Source: Siphonodentalium dalli (Eukaryota > Mollusca > Scaphopoda > Gadilida > Siphonodentaliidae). From it: a DNA stretch of 64,000 nucleotides. Positions 1 to 60,897 of this stretch are shown piece after piece. A model generated the notes under the pieces. The model was not told where the DNA came from. It made no database searches and saw only the letters and a list, made by a program, of their open reading frames with translations. The stretch spans positions 16,802,440 to 16,866,439 of the forward strand of contig CP136061.1 in NCBI GenBank assembly GCA_032622095.1, written 5' to 3'. Positions within the stretch are counted from its first letter, which is position 1, and the number at the start of each line of letters is the position of its first letter. The position numbers were made by a program, and so were the translations under genes.

Positions 1-2571
1 AATGATCTTTGAAAATACAAGTCCGGATTTACATTGTAAGACTGTTTTAAAATTTTGAAGGTCTCTATCATATCTCCACGGAATCTGCGAAACTTCACTG
101 ACATCCAATTGAGACGTATTGATCTTTGTTTATAATCCAGTTCTTTAAGTTGTGGGACCATTTTTGTAGCACGACGTTGTACACACTCTAGTGACATACA
201 CTGGTATTTATGGTGTGGGTGCCAAACAGTGTTACAGTACTCCAATACAGGTCTTACCATGGATATGTATAACTGTCTGAACGTGTCCAATTCCAAACTG
301 ACGAATGTTCTTTTTATTATGCCGAGGATTCGGTATGCCTTACTACATACAGCGTTCAATTTTTCATCAATCGTTACTCCTAAGTCTTTTTCCGATGGGC
401 TGACTAATATTGGTGGATTTTCTGGAACATCAGACATCACATATATATTGCGAGGATTGTTGTGGCCCATGTGTATAACATGCTTCTTCTTAGAATTGAA
501 TTGTAATTGCCAATCCATGGACCACTTACACATAGCATCAACATCTAGTTGTATATTGTCCTGAAGTGGATTTCCAATGATCTTAGTATCATCAGCGAAA
601 ATTTTGCATGTGGTAGTAACACATTCAGGTAAATCGTTAATGCACATTGTAAAAAGAATAGGTCCAAGAACACTACCCTGAGGTACACCGCTGATCACCG
701 ATGTCCAGTCTGAGAATGAAGAACTCACTCGAACTCTTTGTTGTCGACAACACAGAAACTCCTTTATCCACGAGAAAATGTCACGAATTCCGTATGAATA
801 TATTTTGCTGAGTAGCCTATTGTGCGGAACAGTATCAAAGGCTTTTTTGAAATCGAAATATATAACATCAACTGGTTCGCTGTTATCAAGAGACGATGTG
901 ACATGTGATAGATATTTGAGTAGTTGAGTTTTACATGAGCGGCCAGATCTAAATCCGTATTGACATGTAGTGAAAAGGTTATTTTCTTCCACGTGAGTCA
1001 TAACAGCATCAGCCACAAAAGACTCCAATAATTTGCAGAGAATACAGGTTAGACTCACAGGACGATAGTTTCCAGGATCAGATTTGGTTCCTTTTTTGAA
1101 AAGGCATGACACGTTCGCTTGTTTCCACAGCTGAGGTATTTTCCCCTCAGACAGAGATCTGTTTAACAGGATGGATAATGGTATACTGAGCTCCGATGCC
1201 GATTCTTTTAGTAGTTTTGGGTGGATGTTATCAGGCCCGCAGGCTTTGTTTGGATTTAGGTTGCGTAGTTTTCTCTCAATTGCATGGGGTGTGACTTGAA
1301 TACTTGCTAGGAATGTTCCATTGCAACGCTCGTCGATTACTGGTATATCTGTTTGATTCTCCTTTGTGAAAACCCCAGCAAAGAAATCGTTCAGCACTTT
1401 CGCTTTATCTTTGTCCTCTCGGGCAACAGTTTTGCCACCATTTGTCTTCAGGTCTCCGATCCCTTGCTGCGATGCTGTTTTGCTGCGCACATAATTCCAA
1501 AATGCTTTTGGGTTTTTGTGAGATTCTACTGAGATTTTCCTTTCAAATACCCTTTTCGTCGTCTTTATCAATATATTTGTATCACTTCGAAGCTTCTTAT
1601 AAATTTGATAGTCTGCGTCTCAACGAGATCTCCTGTACTTTTTGTAAGCCCTACGCTTCTCTGACTTTCGATATCGTATCCTTGTTAGCCCATGTATTTC
1701 GATTTTTTCCCCTGTTAAAACATTTCTTAGGTATGTGCGCATCAGCTAGTTCCATGACGGATTTGTTGAACATATTCCAGGCTTGTTGTAGTTCTATTTC
1801 ATGTAATCCTGACCAATCTTTCTCTCCCAGTTGTTGTCGTATCATATCGTAATTACCTTTGTGCCATAGAAAGCTGGGCTCCTTTGAATACTGATGGGCA
1901 GTTAATAGAGATGGTTCTATTTCAAACATAATAACGTCATGGTCGCTTTTACCTAGTGCTGCTTCGTGATCAATATTACTAATAACATCCAGATTATTTG
2001 TTATCAGAAGATCTAGAATGTTAGCTTTTTGATTTTCTCGGTGTCTTGTTGGCATATCTATAAGCTGCTGGAAGAAGTTTCTTGAAAGTGCATCAGCGAA
2101 TGCCTTCGCTTCCTCGTCATGCGAGATGCCAGTATCCCACGAAATTTCTGGATAGTTAAAATCTCCGACGATAAACACATTCTTGCGAGAAAAGGTACCC
2201 AAGGTGTCTATCAATTTTACAAGAAACTCGTTGATTTTATCGGATTCAGGACTACGGTATACACACCCAAATTGGATGGAATCATGACCTGTTTTCCATT
2301 CACACCACACTGATTCTGTGTAGCTACCACTCTCCAATTCCATGCATTTCTGTGCTGCCAGTGAGCGATGTGTATAGATAACAGTTCCTCTTTTAGTATT
2401 GTTTCCGAAGAATGCGTCATAGTAATCTATTTGGAATTCACTATCTGAAACATCTGTTTTCGTGCGTTTAGGAAGAGTTTCCGTTATGCAAATTATAGCA
2501 GGTCTATGTTCTTTTATGCGTAAATGAAGTTTGTCACGTTTATTGATCAGGCTATCGGCATTTGTATACAT
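1..2571 (-). pseudogene. LINE ORF2: endonuclease plus reverse transcriptase, one frameshift and one stop
   Basis: ORF2 nicks target DNA and primes reverse transcription of the element RNA. The N-terminal part (2571-1651) is an exonuclease-endonuclease-phosphatase domain, with 'ICITET' and 'VGDFNYPEISWD' motifs. It ends at a TAG at 1651-1653, where a one-base shift continues the frame as 'KRRAYKKYR', soon followed by a TGA near 1631. From there to base 1 the frame reads open for more than 500 codons and holds the RT palm. I see 'YFDFKKAFDTVPH', 'SGVPQGSVLGPILF' and the catalytic 'FADDT' at 585-599, followed by a thumb and C-terminal region ('GDMIETFKILK'). The true N-terminus may lie upstream of 2571, near 2620. 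Damage is minimal, so this copy inserted recently or belongs to an active family. Confidence 0.92.
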
Positions 2572-2622
2572 ACATATGGGATTAAAGTCATTTGAGGTTG
2601 AAGTCGGATGACTTGTTGCATA

Positions 2623-3477
2623 TCAGGCAGTCCTCTGCATCAACCCCAATCCACTCCGTTTCACGATCTTGTCATCTCAAATGAAGAATTGTTCTTTGGG
2701 AAATTTCTTTCTCATTTCATGGCATTCCTCTCTGAGCTCTTTTTGTCGTTTACTCTCTGCAACTGTATAATCACGATTGAAATAAATTTTGGCCCGGTTT
2801 GAAGTATCCTTCACATTTTTGTTATATGATACTGCTTGTTGTAACAACTCATTTCTAGTTTCTTCTGTTGTCAAAATCAGTTTCATTGGACGAACTTTAC
2901 CCTGCGATTTAGTCCCAAGTCTATGGAATGCCTTCACTTCTTTGACGTCTATGTTCGTCATTCTCTCTAGGGTCTGTTCAATTAATTTTTTATCTTCAAT
3001 TCGAGAAAGTTCTGGGTCGGTTTCTTCGCTCTCCTTTATGTTTGCTACAATTATATACTTCTTTCGTTTTTGTTTCTGTTCGTACTCTTTAAAGCGTTCT
3101 TCTATTCTTGTGTCAAGGGATTCTTTGATTTGTTCCATTTCTACTTCAGACTGCTTTTTCTGGTCACGAAGGAGCTTCACTAATGAGTCCAACGTTGCTC
3201 TCATTGCCTTCATTTCCTCATGGATATTTTTATCAGAACTTTCTGTTTCTGCTGCGCAATTCTTACATAACCATTTCACACTTATTGACTTTTTCGTCAA
3301 TAATTTGTGGTCAGCAGCTGTCAAGTCTTGGCATTTTAGATGATATCTTCCATTGCAAGCTTCACATATTATACCAGTTGTATCCGTTTTTATATCTTCG
3401 ACACACAATCTACATGCTCGATCCTCTTTCTCATTGTTTGATGTAGTGGAAACCTTTCTCTTGGATGTTTTAGACAT
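2623..3477 (-). pseudogene. LINE ORF1 with PHD zinc finger, coiled coil and RRM-like region; internal TGA
   Basis: This is the RNA-binding ORF1 partner of the LINE. Residues about 21-75 form a PHD-type finger (C-x2-C, C-x2-C, H-x2-C, W-x-C-x2-C spacing; 'CRLCVEDIK' to 'WLCKNCAAE'). Residues about 85-145 are a charged coiled coil. The C-terminal part ('KYIIVANIKESEE', 'FHRLGTKSQGKVRP', 'IYFNRDYTVAES') resembles the RRM-like domain of CR1 ORF1 proteins. A TGA at 2674-2676 follows 'KEQFFI', but the same frame continues ('DDKIVKRSGLGLMQRTA') to a second TGA at 2623-2625. The first stop is therefore probably an Arg CGA changed to TGA. ORF1 and ORF2 lie in the same frame. Confidence 0.85.
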
Positions 3478-3793
3478 TTTTAAGGTTTGAGATTCTTGAC
3501 ATCTTTGTCGTTGCTAAGGACTTGTATTGTCTCCTAACGAAAATAGGCAATGTCTTTAAGAAACTGTCCAGAAAATACATCCGTATTGTCCTTTGTTGAT
3601 ACAGATCCAGTTTATCCTTTGTAATCCATGTAATCCATTGATTATTGTGTTTCCGTAGCTTTGTTCCGTCATATTTGTTCGTATTTCTTGATAACTTACG
3701 CTTATTATGCTAGACCTTTTATTTTTCCATCTTCTCCATTATGACGTCACAGGAAACTTTATTATATAAGCGAGACTCAAATCACAAAGACAA
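3478..3793. other. Presumed LINE 5' UTR or flank
   Basis: No gene or repeat structure is visible between the ORF1 start and the MITE. The LINE 5' boundary cannot be placed without another copy. Confidence 0.4.
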
Positions 3794-17599: not shown

Positions 17600-18463
17600 T
17601 TTAATGAATTTGGTATTTCAATGATTCTTTAAACACAAAATTGTTAACTCCCCATTGCCCCCCTCATTTCTTAACAGGTTGACCTGATGTTAACAAATCT
17701 GAATATCAGTAACTAAATGATCATCCATACTATATGTAAGCTAAATAGTCCAACCTCTCTTGAGAAGACAATTTAAGAATGACTATAGAGACATACAGTT
17801 ATGTCCCTGGTCCCACCCTATTTAACCTGGTGACCACATCTGAATAAATTTCAATACCAGACACCAAAGAACCCTTCATACTAAATATCAGCAAAATAGA
17901 CCTGTTAACATTTGTGGCGATTTCGGTCGAACAGTTTAACCCGAAGTAGGAAAATGTGGACTGTTACTGGTTGAAAAATCAAATCTACAGCCTCATTGCC
18001 TCCACCCAGGCAGCTTAGAAATCAATAGGAATCTATATATTATTATACCAGTATCAAACAGCATACATACAGGTAGGGTGGGTGGTTGAGAGTTAAATCT
18101 CTTATCTTGCCCTTATTTGAACAAATGTGAATCCCCATCTATGAGATCTATTCATCTAGAAATTTCAAACGGTAGATTTTAAGAGTTGAAGAAAACTGAT
18201 TTTCCTCAAAAGTTTCCTAAAAATGACCTCACGTGTACAAATCTGAACCCCACTCACCAAAGGGCCCTCCATACCAAAAGCTAAATAGGCCTGATGGTTT
18301 CTGAAGAATTACTATGGAGGGAAAGAGTTATGGCCCTGGCTTCTCACCTATATGACCTGATGATAGCTCCACCCGTTTCCGATATCTGGTCTGATGGTTT
18401 CTGAAGAATTACTATGGAGGGAAAGAGTTATGGCCCTGGCTTCTCACCTATATGACCTGATGA
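17600..18463 (+). repeat. Diverged 'agagttatggccctgg' repeats, part 1
   Basis: Loose units of roughly 140-200 bp contain 'aagaattactatggagggaa', 'ttatgtccctggt', 'gacctg(g/a)tga' and 'ccaaatatgagctaa'-like words. The related block 20040-20560 ends in (GACG)n and 'ggtgagctaaaa'. No coding potential is seen. Confidence 0.8.
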
Positions 18464-18492
18464 TAGCTCCACCCGTTTCCGATATCTGGTCT
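18290..18492 (+). repeat. Exact ~101-bp tandem duplication
   Basis: The segment from 'ctgatggtttctgaagaatt' to 'gatatctggt' is present twice without visible differences (about 18290-18390 and 18391-18491). It spans the junction between the 'ggccctgg' repeat and the 122-bp satellite, so the duplication followed their fusion. Confidence 0.9.
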
Positions 18493-19042
18493 GCGCATGC
18501 GCGAAGCTGGCGTCGCACGGGCTCGGCGACCAGATAAAATTTGTATCCGGGGCAAGATACATTCACATAGCAAATTTCAAGTCGATAGCTCCACCCGTTT
18601 CCGAGATCTCGTCTGCGCATGCGTGAAACTGGCGTCGCACGGGCTCGGCGACCCGATAAAATTCGTATCCGGGGCAAGATACATTCACATAGCAAATTTC
18701 AAGTCGATAGCTCCACCTGTTTCCGAGATCTCGTCTGCGCATGCGCGAAGCTGGCGTCGCACGGGCTCGGCGACCCGATAAAATTCGTACTCGGGGCAAG
18801 ATACATTCACATACCAAATTTCAAGTCGATAGCTCCACCCGTTTCCGAGATCTCGTCTGCGCATGCGCTGCACGGGCATCGCACGGGCTCGCCAATACGA
18901 CAACGACCACCGCCTGGTCAAACTACACACACGTACCAAGTTTCGTCCCGATCGGTCGAGAATCGTAGATTTGTATTAAGGACAGACAGACAGACAGACA
19001 AACAGACAGAGGTCTTCAAAATATATATGAGATTTCGGTCTT
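18464..19042 (+). repeat. 122-bp satellite, short array with (GACA)n tail
   Basis: Units begin 'gatagctccacccgtttccg' near 18464, 18586, 18708 and 18830, an exact 122-bp period, and include 'ctgcgcatgcgcgaagctgg'. The last unit switches to 'cgccaatacgacaacg', then 'tcccgatcggtcgagaatcg', (GACA)n and 'aaaatatatatgagat'. The larger array at 47348-48385 ends with the same tail. Confidence 0.95.
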
Positions 19043-21185: not shown

Positions 21186-21574
21186 TCGGGTTACGGAAAC
21201 TCGCATTCATCTTGTTTTGGCCTAATCAAACTGATCAAATCCCAACCTATAAAATCACTATAGAAACTATACAGGTAGGCTACTGAGGTAGGCCTACAAA
21301 CAAATCATGTTCTTGGAAATTGAATGTTCTTCCTTACTTATGTTCTAATGATTTGGGTTGTGATTTGAAACAAACAAACAACCCAAATTATGAGGGGGTA
21401 AACCCAAGTTCTCACTCATAATAACCCCAATTTCCAACCAAGGACAAGGGTTGTGGAGGCGAGTACAACTAATAAAGTAATAATCATCCAAATTGAGAAT
21501 GGGCATATGTGCCAGTCAAAAAAATGGCCCCGGGGAGCCACGATCGAAAAGCTGGAAGATACATGTATGAGTAT

Positions 21575-21787
21575 TGTAACGAGAGAAGGGTGGAATGCGG
21601 GAGTCGCACCGAAAGTTGGCAACACCCGAAATCTCAGGCCACCGGTCACCCATCCAAGTGATAACCGGGCTCGACGTTGCTTAACTTCGGTGACGAGACA
21701 AGGCGTCTTAACCACTGGACCAAAGAAGCATGCTCCGTTGGAGCTGTTGATTAATCGGCCTTCTATATTTACAGCGCGACCGCTACA
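21575..21787 (-). repeat. TRIM copy 1, 3' LTR
   Basis: It is about 6 bp longer than the 5' LTR ('gcgcgaccgctaca' against 'cgctaca' at one end) and differs at scattered sites, including the 5S intermediate-element region ('ggttatcacttgg' instead of 'ggttagtacttgg'). Confidence 0.9.
21620..21705 (-). pseudogene. 5S rRNA-derived segment in TRIM 3' LTR
   Basis: Same segment as in the 5' LTR, with a changed intermediate element and a few substitutions. Boxes A and C are intact by eye. Confidence 0.88.
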
Positions 21788-21896
21788 TTCCTCCCTTCCT
21801 CGTTTTGAGGTTCACCACCAAGTGATCCTCACCCAAGTTCCTCTCTCAGAGCGGTCGCACCATGACACAGACTCTGAGGACCGGACGAGCCCCCAG

Positions 21897-22103
21897 TGTA
21901 ACGGGAGAAGGGTGGAATGCGGGAGTCGCACCGAAAGTTAGCAGCACCTGAAATCTCAGGCCACCGGTCACCCATCCAAGTACTAACCGGGCTCGACGTT
22001 GCTTAACTTCGGTGACGAGACAAGGCGTCTTAACCACTGGACCAAAGAAGCATGCTCCGTTGGAGCTGTTGATTAATCAGCCTTCTATATTTACAACGCT
22101 ACA
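21897..22103 (-). repeat. TRIM copy 1, 5' LTR
   Basis: In element orientation it begins 'tgtagcgttgtaaatataga' and ends 'cttctcccgttaca'. It includes the 5S-derived block and, upstream of it, 'tggtccagtggttaagac', which loosely fits a Pol III A box. Confidence 0.9.
21941..22026 (-). pseudogene. 5S rRNA-derived segment in TRIM 5' LTR
   Basis: On the minus strand the sequence reads 'tcaccgaagttaagcaacgt', 'gcccggttagtacttggatg' and 'ggtgaccgg', then 'caggtgctg'. This is the central and 3' part of animal 5S rRNA with box A, the intermediate element and box C recognisable. The 5' ~40 bases and the 3' end of the gene are replaced. It is not a functional 5S gene, but the internal promoter looks largely preserved. 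Confidence 0.9.
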
Positions 22104-23501
22104 AGTATAATATGATAATTCTGAGGTACAGACCCAACCCCCTACCAAAAGCAACCAACTTCGTGTACGTAATTGGTTATAAGAAATATTTATAGTTATT
22201 TGTTAATTAAATCTTGACGTTCATATTATAAGACAACACATACCGGGTATTAGTCTGAGTAGTGCAGGTCGTGACTGCACGGTCGTCCTTTTTTACATGG
22301 ATTTCAACGCCATAATTTTTTGTTGCAGATCCTTTGGAAATTTTGACACTTAAGATTGTTTTACAGACAAAAAATACCTTTGTCAGAACTTCAAATATTT
22401 TGAAAAAAACAAACTTCTGTCAAATGTTTTTGTTTTATATTTTTTAAGGACGACCAGCTGGGCGCAGCCCAGCCGCGCATATGTTGCGCAGCAACATATG
22501 CGCAGGTCGTCCTTATACTAAGTTCGCTTTCGAACATGGGCGCCGCCATCTTGAATTAGGGGCTCCGCCATTTTGAATTTGAGGGGCCGCCATCTTGAAA
22601 CGTCATTCCAATTAAATTAAAACTACAAAATGTTACTTTTCATATAGCCAACATAACATTATTCATTGCGTTAAGGCATTACATGGTTTATTCTTTGAAG
22701 AATAATCATGACTTAAATCATAAATATTGTCGATCGGACTCGGGTTGCTATGCCATTCGGGAAATGTCGGAAATTTACGTAAAACTGCAAATTTTCCTTA
22801 GCCACCTCACGAAAACAACATAGGCCTAATTCATATCGTAAATATCTTGAATCTTTATGATCCTTTATCATATAACTAAATAAACTTTTCTTTAGTTTAG
22901 TAAATTAGTAGAAGCATGTTCTGTAAACTGTTAGATTACGTCATATTGTCACGCGCATTTTCCCGCGAAAGTTATTGACGTTTTGACAGCGACGCGACAT
23001 AGCACACAAAGCAGGCATAATGTTGGCATGGTTCGCATTAGGTTTGGTTGGGTTGACGTTGTTTCATAGTGCATGGTTCCGAGTCCGCGCTGGTATAAAT
23101 GTAGCTCCATGCAATCAAACTGATCAAATCCCAACCTATAAAATCACTATAGAATCTATACAGGTAGGGCCTACCGGTACTGAGGTAGGCCTACAAACAA
23201 ATCATGTTCTTGGAAATTGAATGTTCTTCCTTACTTATATTCTAATGAATTGGGTTGTGATTTGAAACAAACAAACAACCCAAATTATGAGGGGGTAAAC
23301 CCAAGTTCTCACTCATAATAACCCCAATTTCCAACCAAGGCCAAGGGTTGTGGAGGAGAGTACAACTAATATTTCGTCCAAATTGAGAATGGGTATATGT
23401 GCCAGTCAAAAAAATGGCCCCGGGGAGCCACGATCGAAAGGCTGTAAGATACATGTATGAGTATAATATGATAATTATGAGGTACAGACCCAACCCCCTA
23501 C

Positions 23502-24611
23502 CACAACTTGGCACAAATTCAAATCAAATTGTTTATTTGGTATAGAATCCAATATTAGATTATTACCAACACATATAAAGAACATAACAAAAGGACATTT
23601 ACATCAATACATGTATACATTCAAGTACATAAAGTGAAATTGTAGGTTCTACAATAGAATAGAGGTTTGGTGGATCTTACTGATATTAAGTACATGTTTG
23701 CCTATATTTTGATACCATCCCAATAGCAGGTTTCAGTTCGCAAGCTCATTCCTTTTTTTATACATTTTATAAACTCCCATCATACATATTTTCTTTATGG
23801 ATGTGTCAACTTCATTTGGACTTAATATGAAAGTAACTTTTTCATCATCGCTGTAGTTATTAAATTCAGGAATATTATACTGAATTTTATCAAGCATTGT
23901 CTTCCTCTCAACTTTTAGGGGCTTACAGTCTATAATAAAATGCTTTTCATCCTCCACTCCATTCTTACAGATAGGACAAATTCGATCTTTTAGTTCAAGT
24001 TTTGATCTGCCCTTTTCAATTAATAACTGACTGTCACTAATCCTAATCTTAGTATTAGTAGTTTTTACTTCATTATCTAAGTCAGCTAATAGGTAACTTT
24101 CACACTGATACAAATTTTTCAGTTTTCTATAAAACCTTAATTTGTTACCGTTGGGTTTATTCTCATCGTTAAATAGTTGTTTTTTCCAGAACTCGGTAAA
24201 TCTGATTTGTAATTTCTTTTCAACTTCTCTAGATTCACCCCTGATAGTATAGTTATTACTATGTTTAACCGATTCACTACCTAAGTCTACTTTTTCCAAT
24301 ATTATTTTTATTTGATCACAAAAGCCCATCTCAAGTTTCTGATTTTCCAAATAAGCCTTGTGTACTAATGACTCAGGGTTAGATTGAACCAAGTGGTTAT
24401 GGTAGTTTAAGCTGTTCTTTATTCCAGAAATGTAGACAGGAAATATTCCTAATTCTCCAAAACAGGCCATATTGGTGGCAGATCTGTTAACACCAAGAAC
24501 AAATTTCATGAATTTCATTTGATTTTTATCTGGGAGAAATGTACTTGCTCTTGTCTCAAAATCAGATGCTCTCCGAACAATATGGTCGGGAGTGGTCAGC
24601 TCCCCGCACAA
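23502..24611 (-). mobile_element. 5'-truncated LINE inserted in repeat R, CACAA duplication
   Basis: The insertion is 23507-24606, flanked by 'cacaa' at 23502-23506 and 24607-24611. Copy 1 of R reads 'ctaccaaaagcaaccaac' at the equivalent empty site. On the minus strand the coding region is followed by about 220 bp of 3' UTR ending 'ataaacaatttgatttgaat', a typical LINE 3' tail. The 5' end is truncated inside the coding region. Confidence 0.88.
23733..24606 (-). pseudogene. LINE reverse transcriptase C-terminal region (5'-truncated)
   Basis: About 290 codons are open from the truncation point to a stop at 23733-23735. There is no native start: the frame simply opens at the insertion junction. 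The C-terminal part contains 'RICPICKNGVEDEKHFIIDC', a C-x2-C...H-x4-C motif common near the C-terminus of LINE polymerases. The N-terminal part ('PDHIVRRASDF', 'KFMKFVLGVNRSATN') fits the region downstream of the RT palm. The catalytic RT motifs are missing, so the copy is dead on arrival, but the absence of internal stops means it is young. Confidence 0.85.
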
Positions 24612-24841: not shown

Positions 24842-25501
24842 AGATTGGGTCAGTAGTGGCCAAATCTGATGCTCATACCTTTTCTAATTACAGGCGACAA
24901 AGGACTCCTGGTCGCAGATTCTGCTTGGTTCTCTTATTATGGTGACAATAAAGACAAGATTCCACCAAAAGTTCCGAAATCCGCGCCTTCATGAGCTAAA
25001 ATAAAGACTTTTGTCATTTGTGCAAAAGAAATTGTTGTCTGTCTGTTTACGGAAGCGATATTTCACCACATGTTAATGCTGTTTGTCATGCGCAGTTCAA
25101 TGTTTCATGATGGTCAATAAAACGTGTACTCCACCCCGAAGACGACTGTTGGAAATGTGTACTTGGAAGATATTATGGAAAAACTAAATTCTTTTGCTAA
25201 ATGTTATGCTACTATGCCAATTTATTACATATGTAATAAAAATATTACCGAAAAATTATCAACATATACTTTTTAATAGAATTGTTGCTTCGAAAATATA
25301 CTATTTAAAACGTGTACTCCAAGCCAGAATGAGAAAAAGTGTAGCCGAGTTAGATCATGCTTTATTACCCACTTCTACAAAATGTTGTATTATACTTTCA
25401 ACAAGTTGTAGAAATATATTGGTGATATGAAGTAATTATTTTATTCAGTGAAACATAATCACTTCTCACATTTGTCATGCATGGTGTCAAAAAAATGACA
25501 T
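24841..25501 (+). repeat. Left arm of ~660-bp inverted repeat
   Basis: This segment is repeated in inverted orientation at 26327-26982 with only a few differences. A matched 78-codon frame at 25194-25430 / 26393-26629 differs at two residues. The spacer of about 825 bp shows no relation to the arms. It carries a candidate terminal exon and an AATAAA. Confidence 0.93.
24894..24994 (+). pseudogene. Candidate terminal coding exon in left arm (captured gene fragment)
   Basis: A polypyrimidine/branch-like 'ttttctaattacag' precedes 101 bases that read as 32 codons after a split codon. They begin 'DKGLLVADSAWFSYYGDNKD' and end at TGA (24992-24994), with AATAAA at 25000-25005. Splice acceptor, coding-like composition, stop and close polyadenylation signal together suggest the last exon of a real gene. 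I do not recognise the protein and see no upstream exon nearby. The identical exon sits in the right arm. Confidence 0.5.
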
Positions 25502-26326: not shown

Positions 26327-26982
26327 ATGTCATTTTTTGACACCATGACAAATGTGAGAAGTGATTATGTTTCACTGAATAAAATAATTACTTCATATCA
26401 CCAATATATTTCTACAACTTGTTGAAAGTATAATACAACATTTTGTAGAAGTGGGTAATAAAGCATGATCTAACTCGGCTACACTTTTTCTCATTCTGGC
26501 TTGGAGTACACTTTTTAAATAGTATATTTTCGATGCAACAATTCTATTAAAAAGTATATGTTGATAATTTTTCGGTAATATTTTTATTACATATGTAATA
26601 TATTGGCATAGTAGCATAACATTTAGCAAAAGAATTTAGTTTTTCCATAATATCTTCCAAGTACACATTTCCAACAGTCGTCTTCGGGGTGGAGTACACG
26701 TTTTATTGACCATCATGAAACATTGAACTGCGCATGACAAACAGCATTAACATGTGGTGAAATATCGCTTCCGTAAACAGACAGACAACAATTTCTTTTG
26801 CACAAATGACAAAAGTCTTTATTTTAGCTCATGAAGGCGCGGATTTCGGAACTTTTGGTGGAATCTTGTCTTTATTGTCACCATAATAAGAGAACCAAGC
26901 AGAATCTGCGACCAGGAGTCCTTTGTCGCCTGTAATTAGAAAAGGTATGAGCATCAGATTTGGCCACTACTGACCCAATCTG
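26327..26982 (-). repeat. Right arm of ~660-bp inverted repeat
   Basis: Reverse complement of 24841-25501 with a few substitutions and one short 'gcat' difference near the inner edge. The outer limit is at 'tgacccaatctg', after which the sequences diverge. Confidence 0.93.
26829..26929 (-). pseudogene. Candidate terminal coding exon in right arm
   Basis: Same acceptor, 32 codons, TGA and downstream AATAAA as the left-arm exon, on the minus strand. The two copies look identical, so the duplication is recent or kept similar by gene conversion. Confidence 0.5.
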
Positions 26983-46642: not shown

Positions 46643-47347
46643 ACTAGCAGGTGACCCGTCTTCGTCCGGGCTTTGTCCTTGAATTGACAATTTTGAAAGT
46701 CAAGGTCAGGTCGGAGTAACTATTTGAACCGTCCAAAACACTCCCCGGACAAAATAAACCGTAGGTATCAAATTTAGTCAAAATCCGTCCAGCAGTTTTC
46801 CCGACCATAGCTAACAGACAAACAAACAGACAGAAGTCCCAAAATATATATTAGATCATTTGTGGGTACCCGTATCAAGGTGAAGGTCACCTCGGGCGGA
46901 AAAACTGACCTGATGAAAATCTCCTCCATTCCCAGGAACCCCTAAGTACGAACACACACAGACAACACACTCATGTCTGTACACAGACACAAAATGCTCA
47001 TGTCTGGACACAAACACGCTCTTTATCAACGACACTGGGGATACGAACGCTCTTTAACTATCACGCGATTAACCCATGAATTCCTATTGTGGTGGCGGGG
47101 GATTGGAGAATGAGTGCTCTGACGTTCTCAGAAGCGGTGCGATGACAATCCATCTGAGATTTTATCCTTAGATAGGAAGTTTGGGCTCAATCCGTCCGGC
47201 AGTTTTCCCGACCATAGCTAACAAACAAACAAACAAACAAACAGAAGTCCCAAAATATATATTAGATAGCCGATGAGCCCGACGTTGTCCGGGCTATTCA
47301 AATACCAAATTTCGTTGTCCGGGCTATTCAAAAACCAAATTTCAAGT

Positions 47348-48385
47348 CGATAGCTCCACCCGTTTCCGAGATCTGGTCTGCGCATGCGCGAAGCTGGCGT
47401 CGCACGGGCTCGGTGACCCGATAAAATTCGTATCCGGGGCAAGATACATTCACATACCAAATTTCAAGTCGATAGCTCCACCCGTTTCCGAGATCTCGTC
47501 TGCGCATGCGCGAAGCTGGCGTCGCACGGGCTCGGCGACTCGATAAACTTCGTATCCGTGGCAAGATACATTCACATACCAAATTTCAAGTCGATAGCGC
47601 CACTCATTTCCGAGATCTCGTCTGCGCATGCGCGAAGCTGGCGTCGCACGGGCTCGGCGACCCGATAAAATTCGTATCCGGGGCAAGATACATTCACATA
47701 GCAAATTTCAAGTCGATAGCTCCACCCGTGTCCGAGATCTCGTCTGCGCATGCGCGAAGCTGGCGTCGCACGGGCTCGGCGACCCGATAAAATTCGTATC
47801 CGGGGCAAGATACATTCACATACCAAATTTCAAGTCGATAGCTCCACCCGTTTCCGAGATCTCGTCTGCGCATGCGCGAAGCTGGCGTCGCACGGGCTCG
47901 GCGACTCGATAAACTTCGTATCCGTGGCAAGATACATTCACATACCAAATTTCAAGTCGATAGCTCCACCCGTTTCCGAGATCTCGTCTGCGCATGCGCG
48001 AAGCTGGCGTCGCACGGGCTCGGCGACCCGGTAAAATTTCGTATCCGGGGCAAGATACATTCACATACCAAATTTCAAGTCGATAGCGCCACCCATTTCC
48101 GAGATCTCGTCTGCGCATGCGCGAAGCTGGCGTCGCACGGGCTCGGCGACCCGATAAAATTCGTATCCGGGGCAAGATACATTCACATAGCAAATTTCAA
48201 GTCGATAGCTCAACCCGTTTCCGAGATCGCGTCTGCGCATGCGCGAAGTGGGCGCCGCACGGGCTCGCCAATACGACAACGTCCACCGCCTGGTCAAACT
48301 ACACACACGTACCATGTTTCGTCCCGATCGGTCGAGAATCGTACAGACAGACAAACAGAGGTCTTCAAAATATATATGAGACTAG
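47348..48385 (+). repeat. 122-bp satellite, eight-copy array
   Basis: Units begin near 47349, 47471, 47593, 47715, 47837, 47959, 48082 and 48204, with 'ctgcgcatgcgcgaagctgg' and 'ggggcaagatacattcacat'. Alternating 'accaaatttc' and 'agcaaatttc' variants and two 'cgtggcaagat' units hint at higher-order structure. The array ends with the same unit switch and tail as 18830-19042. Because 122 is not divisible by three, several frames stay open; none is a gene. Confidence 0.96.
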
Positions 48386-48419
48386 CAGGTTAGCCCGCCA
48401 CTGGCGTGGTTGGTCAGAA

Positions 48420-60526: not shown

Positions 60527-60897
60527 TGTAACAGAACGAGGGAGAGAAGTGCGGAAGTCGCACCGAAATTTGGCAGCACCTGGAATCCCAAGCCGGTCAC
60601 CCATCCAAGGACTAACAAAGCTCGACGTTGCTTAACTTCAGTGATCACACAACTCGTCTAACGGCTGTGACCAAGAGATCTAAACCTCTCGAGCAGAGAA
60701 GTCATCGGCCTTCTATATTTACAACGCGACCGCTACACTAACCCCCGTTCTTATTGATATTCACCGAATCGCACCTGAGTCCTCCCCCAGAGCGGTCGCA
60801 TCATGACACAGACTCCGAAGAGCGGACGAGCCTCAGTGTAACAGAACGAGAGAGAAGTGCGGGAATCGCACCGAAAGTTTGCAGGACCCGGAATCCA
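60527..60897 (-). mobile_element. TRIM with 5S-derived LTRs, copy 2 (5' LTR truncated)
   Basis: A complete 3' LTR (60527-60737, 'tgtaac' to 'gctaca') is followed by a 99-bp internal region (60738-60836). A 5' LTR begins again with 'tgtaacagaacgag' at 60837 but is cut near 60897, where a tandem repeat starts. The internal region shares 'gcggtcgca(t/c)catgacacag' with copy 1. The primer-site region on the minus strand, 'tgaggctcgtccg', is a decayed form of copy 1. The polypurine tract is weak. Confidence 0.88.
60573..60657 (-). pseudogene. 5S rRNA-derived segment in TRIM copy 2
   Basis: The minus strand reads 'gaagttaagcaacgtcgagc', 'cttggatgggtgaccggc' and 'gggattccaggtgctgcc'. Box A and box C are recognisable, while the intermediate element is changed ('ttagtcc'). 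The 3' part is closer to normal 5S rRNA than in copy 1, so the two loci are independent derivatives of one family. Confidence 0.85.

Follow-up and report, generated by a model that had tools for sequence, protein, structure and literature searches.

The window analysed here is a stretch of 64,000 nucleotides of the Siphonodentalium dalli genome (contig CP136061.1, positions 16,802,440 to 16,866,439). It harbors a 529-bp element composed of two long terminal repeats (LTRs), a primer-binding site (PBS) and a polypurine tract (PPT), and bordered by a target site duplication (TSD) (Table 1). In sense order, the element reads TSD, 5' LTR, a single base, TGGGGGCTCGTCCGG, the remaining internal domain ending in GAGGAAGGGAGGAA, 3' LTR and TSD; it is the position of TGGGGGCTCGTCCGG one base past the 5' LTR and of GAGGAAGGGAGGAA next to the 3' LTR that places it on the minus strand. 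The first-pass annotation of this DNA had described direct repeats of 207-213 bp with TG...CA termini, a 15-base primer site matching tRNA-Pro, a PPT and the absence of a coding region, and all of these were confirmed. The direct repeats 21575-21780 and 21897-22102 presented 96% identity before their ends were refined. With the true ends (TGTAGCGG...GTTACA), 200 of 207 aligned bases are equal, besides a length difference of 6 bp. The internal domain is too short for a gene, and the assignment of the PBS was made on what we take to be the 3'-end sequence of tRNA-Pro. With less than 1000 bp, two LTRs, a PBS, a PPT and no coding region, the element is a TRIM.

Table 1. Features of the TRIM element, of related copies in the window and of the host 5S gene clusters.
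Feature	Location	Strand	Remarks
Whole TRIM element, family 1 (529 bp)	21575..22103	-	
5' LTR (207 bp), TGTAGCG...GTTACA	21897..22103	-	Reverse complement of 21897-22103
5S promoter core in the 5' LTR	21965..22015	-	Exact to host 5S (positions 43-93) over 51 nt
Primer-binding site TGGGGGCTCGTCCGG (15 nt)	21881..21895	-	Presumed complement of the tRNA-Pro 3' end
Internal domain (109 bp), non-coding	21788..21896	-	
Polypurine tract GAGGAAGGGAGGAA	21788..21801	-	Adjoins the 3' LTR
3' LTR (213 bp)	21575..21787	-	Reverse complement of 21575-21787
5S promoter core in the 3' LTR	21643..21693	-	Exact to host 5S over at most 32 nt
TSD AGTAT, low-coordinate side	21570..21574	.	
TSD AGTAT, high-coordinate side	22104..22108	.	
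Related repeat copy with empty target site	23113..23506	+	
Second-family copy	60527..60895	-	5' LTR remnant 60837-60895; PBS region and internal domain 60738-60836; full 3' LTR 60527-60737
Host 5S clusters	C2, about 200.18-200.35 Mb; C9, about 133.54-133.60 Mb; C6, about 231.75-231.85 Mb		

The element is an insertion, since the neighbouring repeat copy runs straight over the junction of its joined flanks, with a single AGTAT and 92.8% identity; the empty site already proposed for this repeat is therefore real. The 5S-like stretches occur twice in a row within the element, with a spacing of 322 bp, and tandem arrays of the element exist. Both features would fit two tandem 5S pseudogenes and their spacer, a possibility raised together with the first description, but the empty site and the TSDs found at 27 of 31 sites (see below) refute it. 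In addition, a PBS and a PPT are present, matches lie on eight of the nine contigs, and the real 5S genes that were scored are mostly in arrays with other spacings. We give this explanation practically no credence.

The search of the host genome (2,226,750,531 bp, 2.23 Gb, in nine contigs) with the 529-bp query, as the first-pass annotation had suggested, showed many copies with terminal repeats and TSDs. At least 45 matches were found on contigs C1-C8, at least 34 of which reached 95% identity; these counts are lower bounds, with 40 of 1699 first-look candidates scored. We read 30 family-1 loci (L001-L030) and another 13 stretches (L052-L064), among which a pair covers again arrays touched by L013/L016 and L030. 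Both ends were present in 28 of the 30 loci, the last bases of the 3' LTR being absent from L017 and L022. Copy sizes, determined for 28 of the 30, ranged from 491 to 547 bp, and 535 bp was the most frequent full length; the 529 bp described at the outset is thus the length of the window copy and not that of the family, because the 5' LTR in the window lacks 6 bp. The tRNA-Pro PBS had no mismatch in 24 of 28 copies scored.

In relation to the TSD, 35 of the 43 family-1 loci were used and four rows repeating a site were removed, which left 31 distinct sites. The loci not counted were L016 and L064 (array of L013), L030 (array of L058), L017, L022 and the 5'-truncated L054, L055 and L060. An exact 4-bp duplication was present at 24 of the 31 sites, a 5-bp one at three (the window copy, L010 and L056) and neither at four (L004, L006, L028 and L063), while cross-paired flanks gave 1.1%. 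The 5-bp AGTAT reported previously therefore holds for the window copy, but it is not the norm of the family.

The two LTRs of a copy differ by 0-4.2%, with a median of 1.9% (28 pairs, gaps uncounted), which suggests recent insertions. The family is genuine and has been spreading recently. Tandem LTR-internal-LTR arrays are found in both families: L064 and L058 have three LTRs and two internal domains each, and L071 has four LTRs and three internal domains. Some copies (L002/L008, L012/L023, L024/L025, L052/L053 and L066/L067) form pairs on a single contig, with shared flanks at both locations; a later duplication of host DNA probably carried these insertions along. In L056, about 0.9 kb of other DNA interrupts the 5' LTR near LTR position 100. 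Another aspect to mention is that the LTRs of the window copy differ from each other at sites that are polymorphic in the family (positions 127-128, 166 and 170 of the reference-copy LTR, compared across L001-L030), hinting at a mosaic element made from two templates, or at gene conversion.

The window contains a second copy, at 60527-60895, which is 75% identical to the first element and represents another family, the overall difference between families 1 and 2 being about a quarter. At least 85 matches to it were obtained in the genome (40 of 1917 first-look candidates scored), and those of full length are mostly 87-92% identical to the window copy. An exact 4-bp TSD was observed at three of six distinct family-2 sites. 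This second family is the older one. At the start of the LTR, both window copies carry AGCGGTCGC, to which GCGACCGCT of the internal domain is exactly complementary; this complementarity possibly corresponds to an RNA stem, or it may be due to chance.

Each LTR of the first element carries a 5S core, in the sense orientation of the element, as had been claimed. Allowing up to three mismatches, the core pattern is confined, within the window, to these two LTRs, and 100 shuffles gave no match; the core of the second window copy is beyond this limit. With 26.4 bits, the Rfam 5S score stays below the gathering cut-off of 38, so the sequence is a partial and diverged 5S in which the promoter part is kept and the remainder is not. 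The core of the 5' LTR comprises what we take to be the A box, the IE and most of the C box. The viral contigs searched contained no exact match to the 5S-core or internal patterns, and the prokaryote genome contigs none to 5S-core patterns.

The 5S genes of the host were used for the alignment of the LTRs that had been called for. All 47 scored matches (of 95474 loose candidates) were over the cut-off, and 20 were read. They form several clusters of differing spacing (about 1.36 kb on C9) and slightly differing sequence. The longest exact run to host 5S is 51 nt in the 5' LTR of the window, as against 20 nt in the second window copy; in seven family-2 loci the runs are 15, 19, 36, 36, 40, 49 and 53 nt, the last in L068. 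Therefore both families include copies that are exact to host 5S over 51-53 nt. Among 60 family-1 LTRs, a set that includes repeated sites and array neighbours, 15 had no mismatch to the 51-nt host core and 20 more had one. Common variants of the core fall at host 5S positions 75-77, presumably between the IE and the C box. Cassandra is likewise variable between these two boxes, according to passages of PMC10853983.

We consider it likely that RNA polymerase III transcribes this TRIM from a 5S promoter that it has captured, and that an LTR retrotransposon moves it; the use of this polymerase, the start and stop points and the helper are what we infer here. The conservation of the core was evaluated in seven chosen LTRs (the main family, L052, L057, L061, L062, L063 and the second window copy), which are not independent, L052 and L057 being close to each other, as are L061-L063. 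The core ranked at the top: its mean pairwise identity was 94.5%, none of 164 50-bp windows was higher and a single one, beginning a base earlier, tied. In the same LTRs, identity was 91.8% in the first 40 bp, 85.7% at positions 41-95 and 74.3% past the core. A different explanation would be that RNA polymerase II transcribes an ordinary TRIM in which the 5S piece is a passenger or merely a protein-binding site. It should be noted that between the two window copies the start of the LTR (35 of 40 in its first 40 bp) is about as conserved as the core (40 of 47), and that the core does not stand out from the remaining LTR in conservation inside the young subfamily (rank 105 of 162), both of which favour RNA polymerase II. 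However, no part of the LTR surpasses the core in the seven divergent copies, and the exact identity of the core with host 5S is kept in two families in which much else has drifted, so that we regard RNA polymerase II as an unlikely alternative. The natural reading of the pattern would be constraint on the core between families and neutral decay after insertion.

According to the Pol III proposal, the polymerase would be recruited through the A box, the IE and the C box of the 5' LTR. In 5S-type promoters, the start of transcription lies upstream of the boxes. By analogy with 5S, transcription would begin within the 5' LTR some 42 bp ahead of the conserved core; host 5S position 1 precedes the matched core by 42 nt, which would place the start near LTR position 50. 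The transcript would cross the PBS, the short internal domain and then the 3' LTR, stopping at a T run in the flank. The sense strand has no TTTT in 23 of 30 copies, and the first downstream TTTT is at a median of 105 nt, so the transcript could cover the whole element and terminate in the flank; for the window copy alone, the lack of TTTT is weak (10.8% of shuffles, P = 0.108). A full-span transcript would keep a repeat long enough for strand transfer. Reverse transcriptase and integrase from an LTR retrotransposon elsewhere would then copy the RNA, with tRNA-Pro and the PPT as primers, and insert the product with a TSD mostly of 4 bp. As passages of PMC3272025 indicate, 5S-type promoters are thought to rely on upstream signals, which may be absent from a new insertion site; this counts against Pol III.

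In the window LTR, an A-box-like TGGTCCAGTGGT and a B-box-like GGTGCGACTCC flank the 5S core (shuffle P = 0.232 and 0.0145, respectively, and 0.0025 jointly), which led us to consider whether the sequence on either side of the core could be tRNA-derived. Rfam listed no tRNA up to an E-value of 10. Visual inspection of the alignments showed changes to the A-box-like stretch in family 2 and to the B-box-like stretch in L061-L063.

SINE3 elements are mobilised by LINEs and have no LTRs, PBS or PPT. The promoter sequence of the present element is, as theirs, a 5S-derived Pol III promoter, which is the point in favour of a 5S-headed SINE moved by a LINE. Nevertheless, the LTRs at both ends, the TG...CA termini, the PBS, the PPT and the 4-bp TSD lying directly at the LTR ends distinguish it from SINE3 as outlined in parts of PMC10886601, and make such an origin extremely improbable.

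TRIMs with 5S sequence in their LTRs are represented by Cassandra, and the first-pass annotation had compared the element with it. The comparison holds for the design: in both, as seen in passages of PMC10853983 and PMC7215508, the LTRs carry a 5S promoter and genes are absent; the promoter of Cassandra follows the host 5S, as that of the present element may, and tandem LTR-internal arrays appear here and also in Cassandra (PMC7215508). In contrast, Cassandra is described there with a methionine primer and conserved terminators, which differs from the tRNA-Pro site and the frequent lack of TTTT found here. An identical design might be taken as a sign of a true Cassandra relative, acquired by descent or by horizontal transfer from plants; the different primer (methionine in the corresponding passages of PMC10853983) and a core exact to the host's own 5S make this very improbable.

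The same annotation had left room for a lack of animal counterparts, but these have been described, so the present element is not the first. In the passages on these elements in Kojima (2024; PMC10886601), Ajax comprises TRIMs of 421-434 bp with partial 5S in their LTRs, a tRNA-Leu primer and a 5-bp TSD, from the nemerteans (ribbon worms) Notospermus geniculatus and Lineus longissimus. TRIMp3 is used there as an umbrella for Ajax, Helenus and Cassandra, and animal Helenus, with a 4-bp TSD, is linked to Gypsy. With small-RNA promoter sequence in its LTRs, from which Pol III would transcribe it, we place our element in the TRIMp3 kind; it is not Cassandra itself. It resembles Helenus in having a Pol III-type small-RNA promoter in the LTRs and, as in animal Helenus, a 4-bp TSD, but the small-RNA sequence of Helenus is derived from tRNA and not from 5S, as stated in that part of PMC10886601. 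Like Ajax, the present element is a gene-free TRIM found in many copies in an animal; it has a tRNA primer site, and its LTRs keep 5S sequence from the promoter part only. Unlike Ajax, it has a tRNA-Pro primer, a TSD mostly of 4 bp and commonly 535 bp, and it forms tandem arrays, of which the Ajax passages of PMC10886601 make no mention. These differences in primer, TSD and length set it apart from the description of Ajax, and its origin is probably separate; the mostly 4-bp TSD suggests an integrase different from the one behind the 5-bp TSD of Ajax. Among the titles and abstract beginnings listed by our searches of the open-access literature, we found no report of an animal 5S TRIM other than Ajax.

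Regarding the wider meaning, we see about even chances that 5S-driven TRIMs had a separate animal origin outside the two ribbon worm genomes, with a promoter that tracks the host 5S. If so, this would be a case of promoter mimicry parallel to Cassandra, either maintained by selection or renewed through conversion from the 5S arrays. In any case, a presumably 5S-driven TRIM with a different primer joins Ajax in animals. The assembled genome, the many young copies and the host 5S genes allow two questions to be put to the test in an animal: can Pol III sustain an LTR element, and does the promoter of a parasite follow the host 5S gene?

Other repeats were observed in the window. A LINE-type element at 1651-3513 has an endonuclease ORF and an upstream PHD-finger ORF. 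Near-identical frames of 80 residues lie on opposite strands about 1 kb apart (25188-25430, plus; 26393-26635, minus) and are probably the arms of an inverted repeat. Finally, similar frames at 122-bp steps at 18444-18968 and 47218-48393 are tandem repeats of one type.
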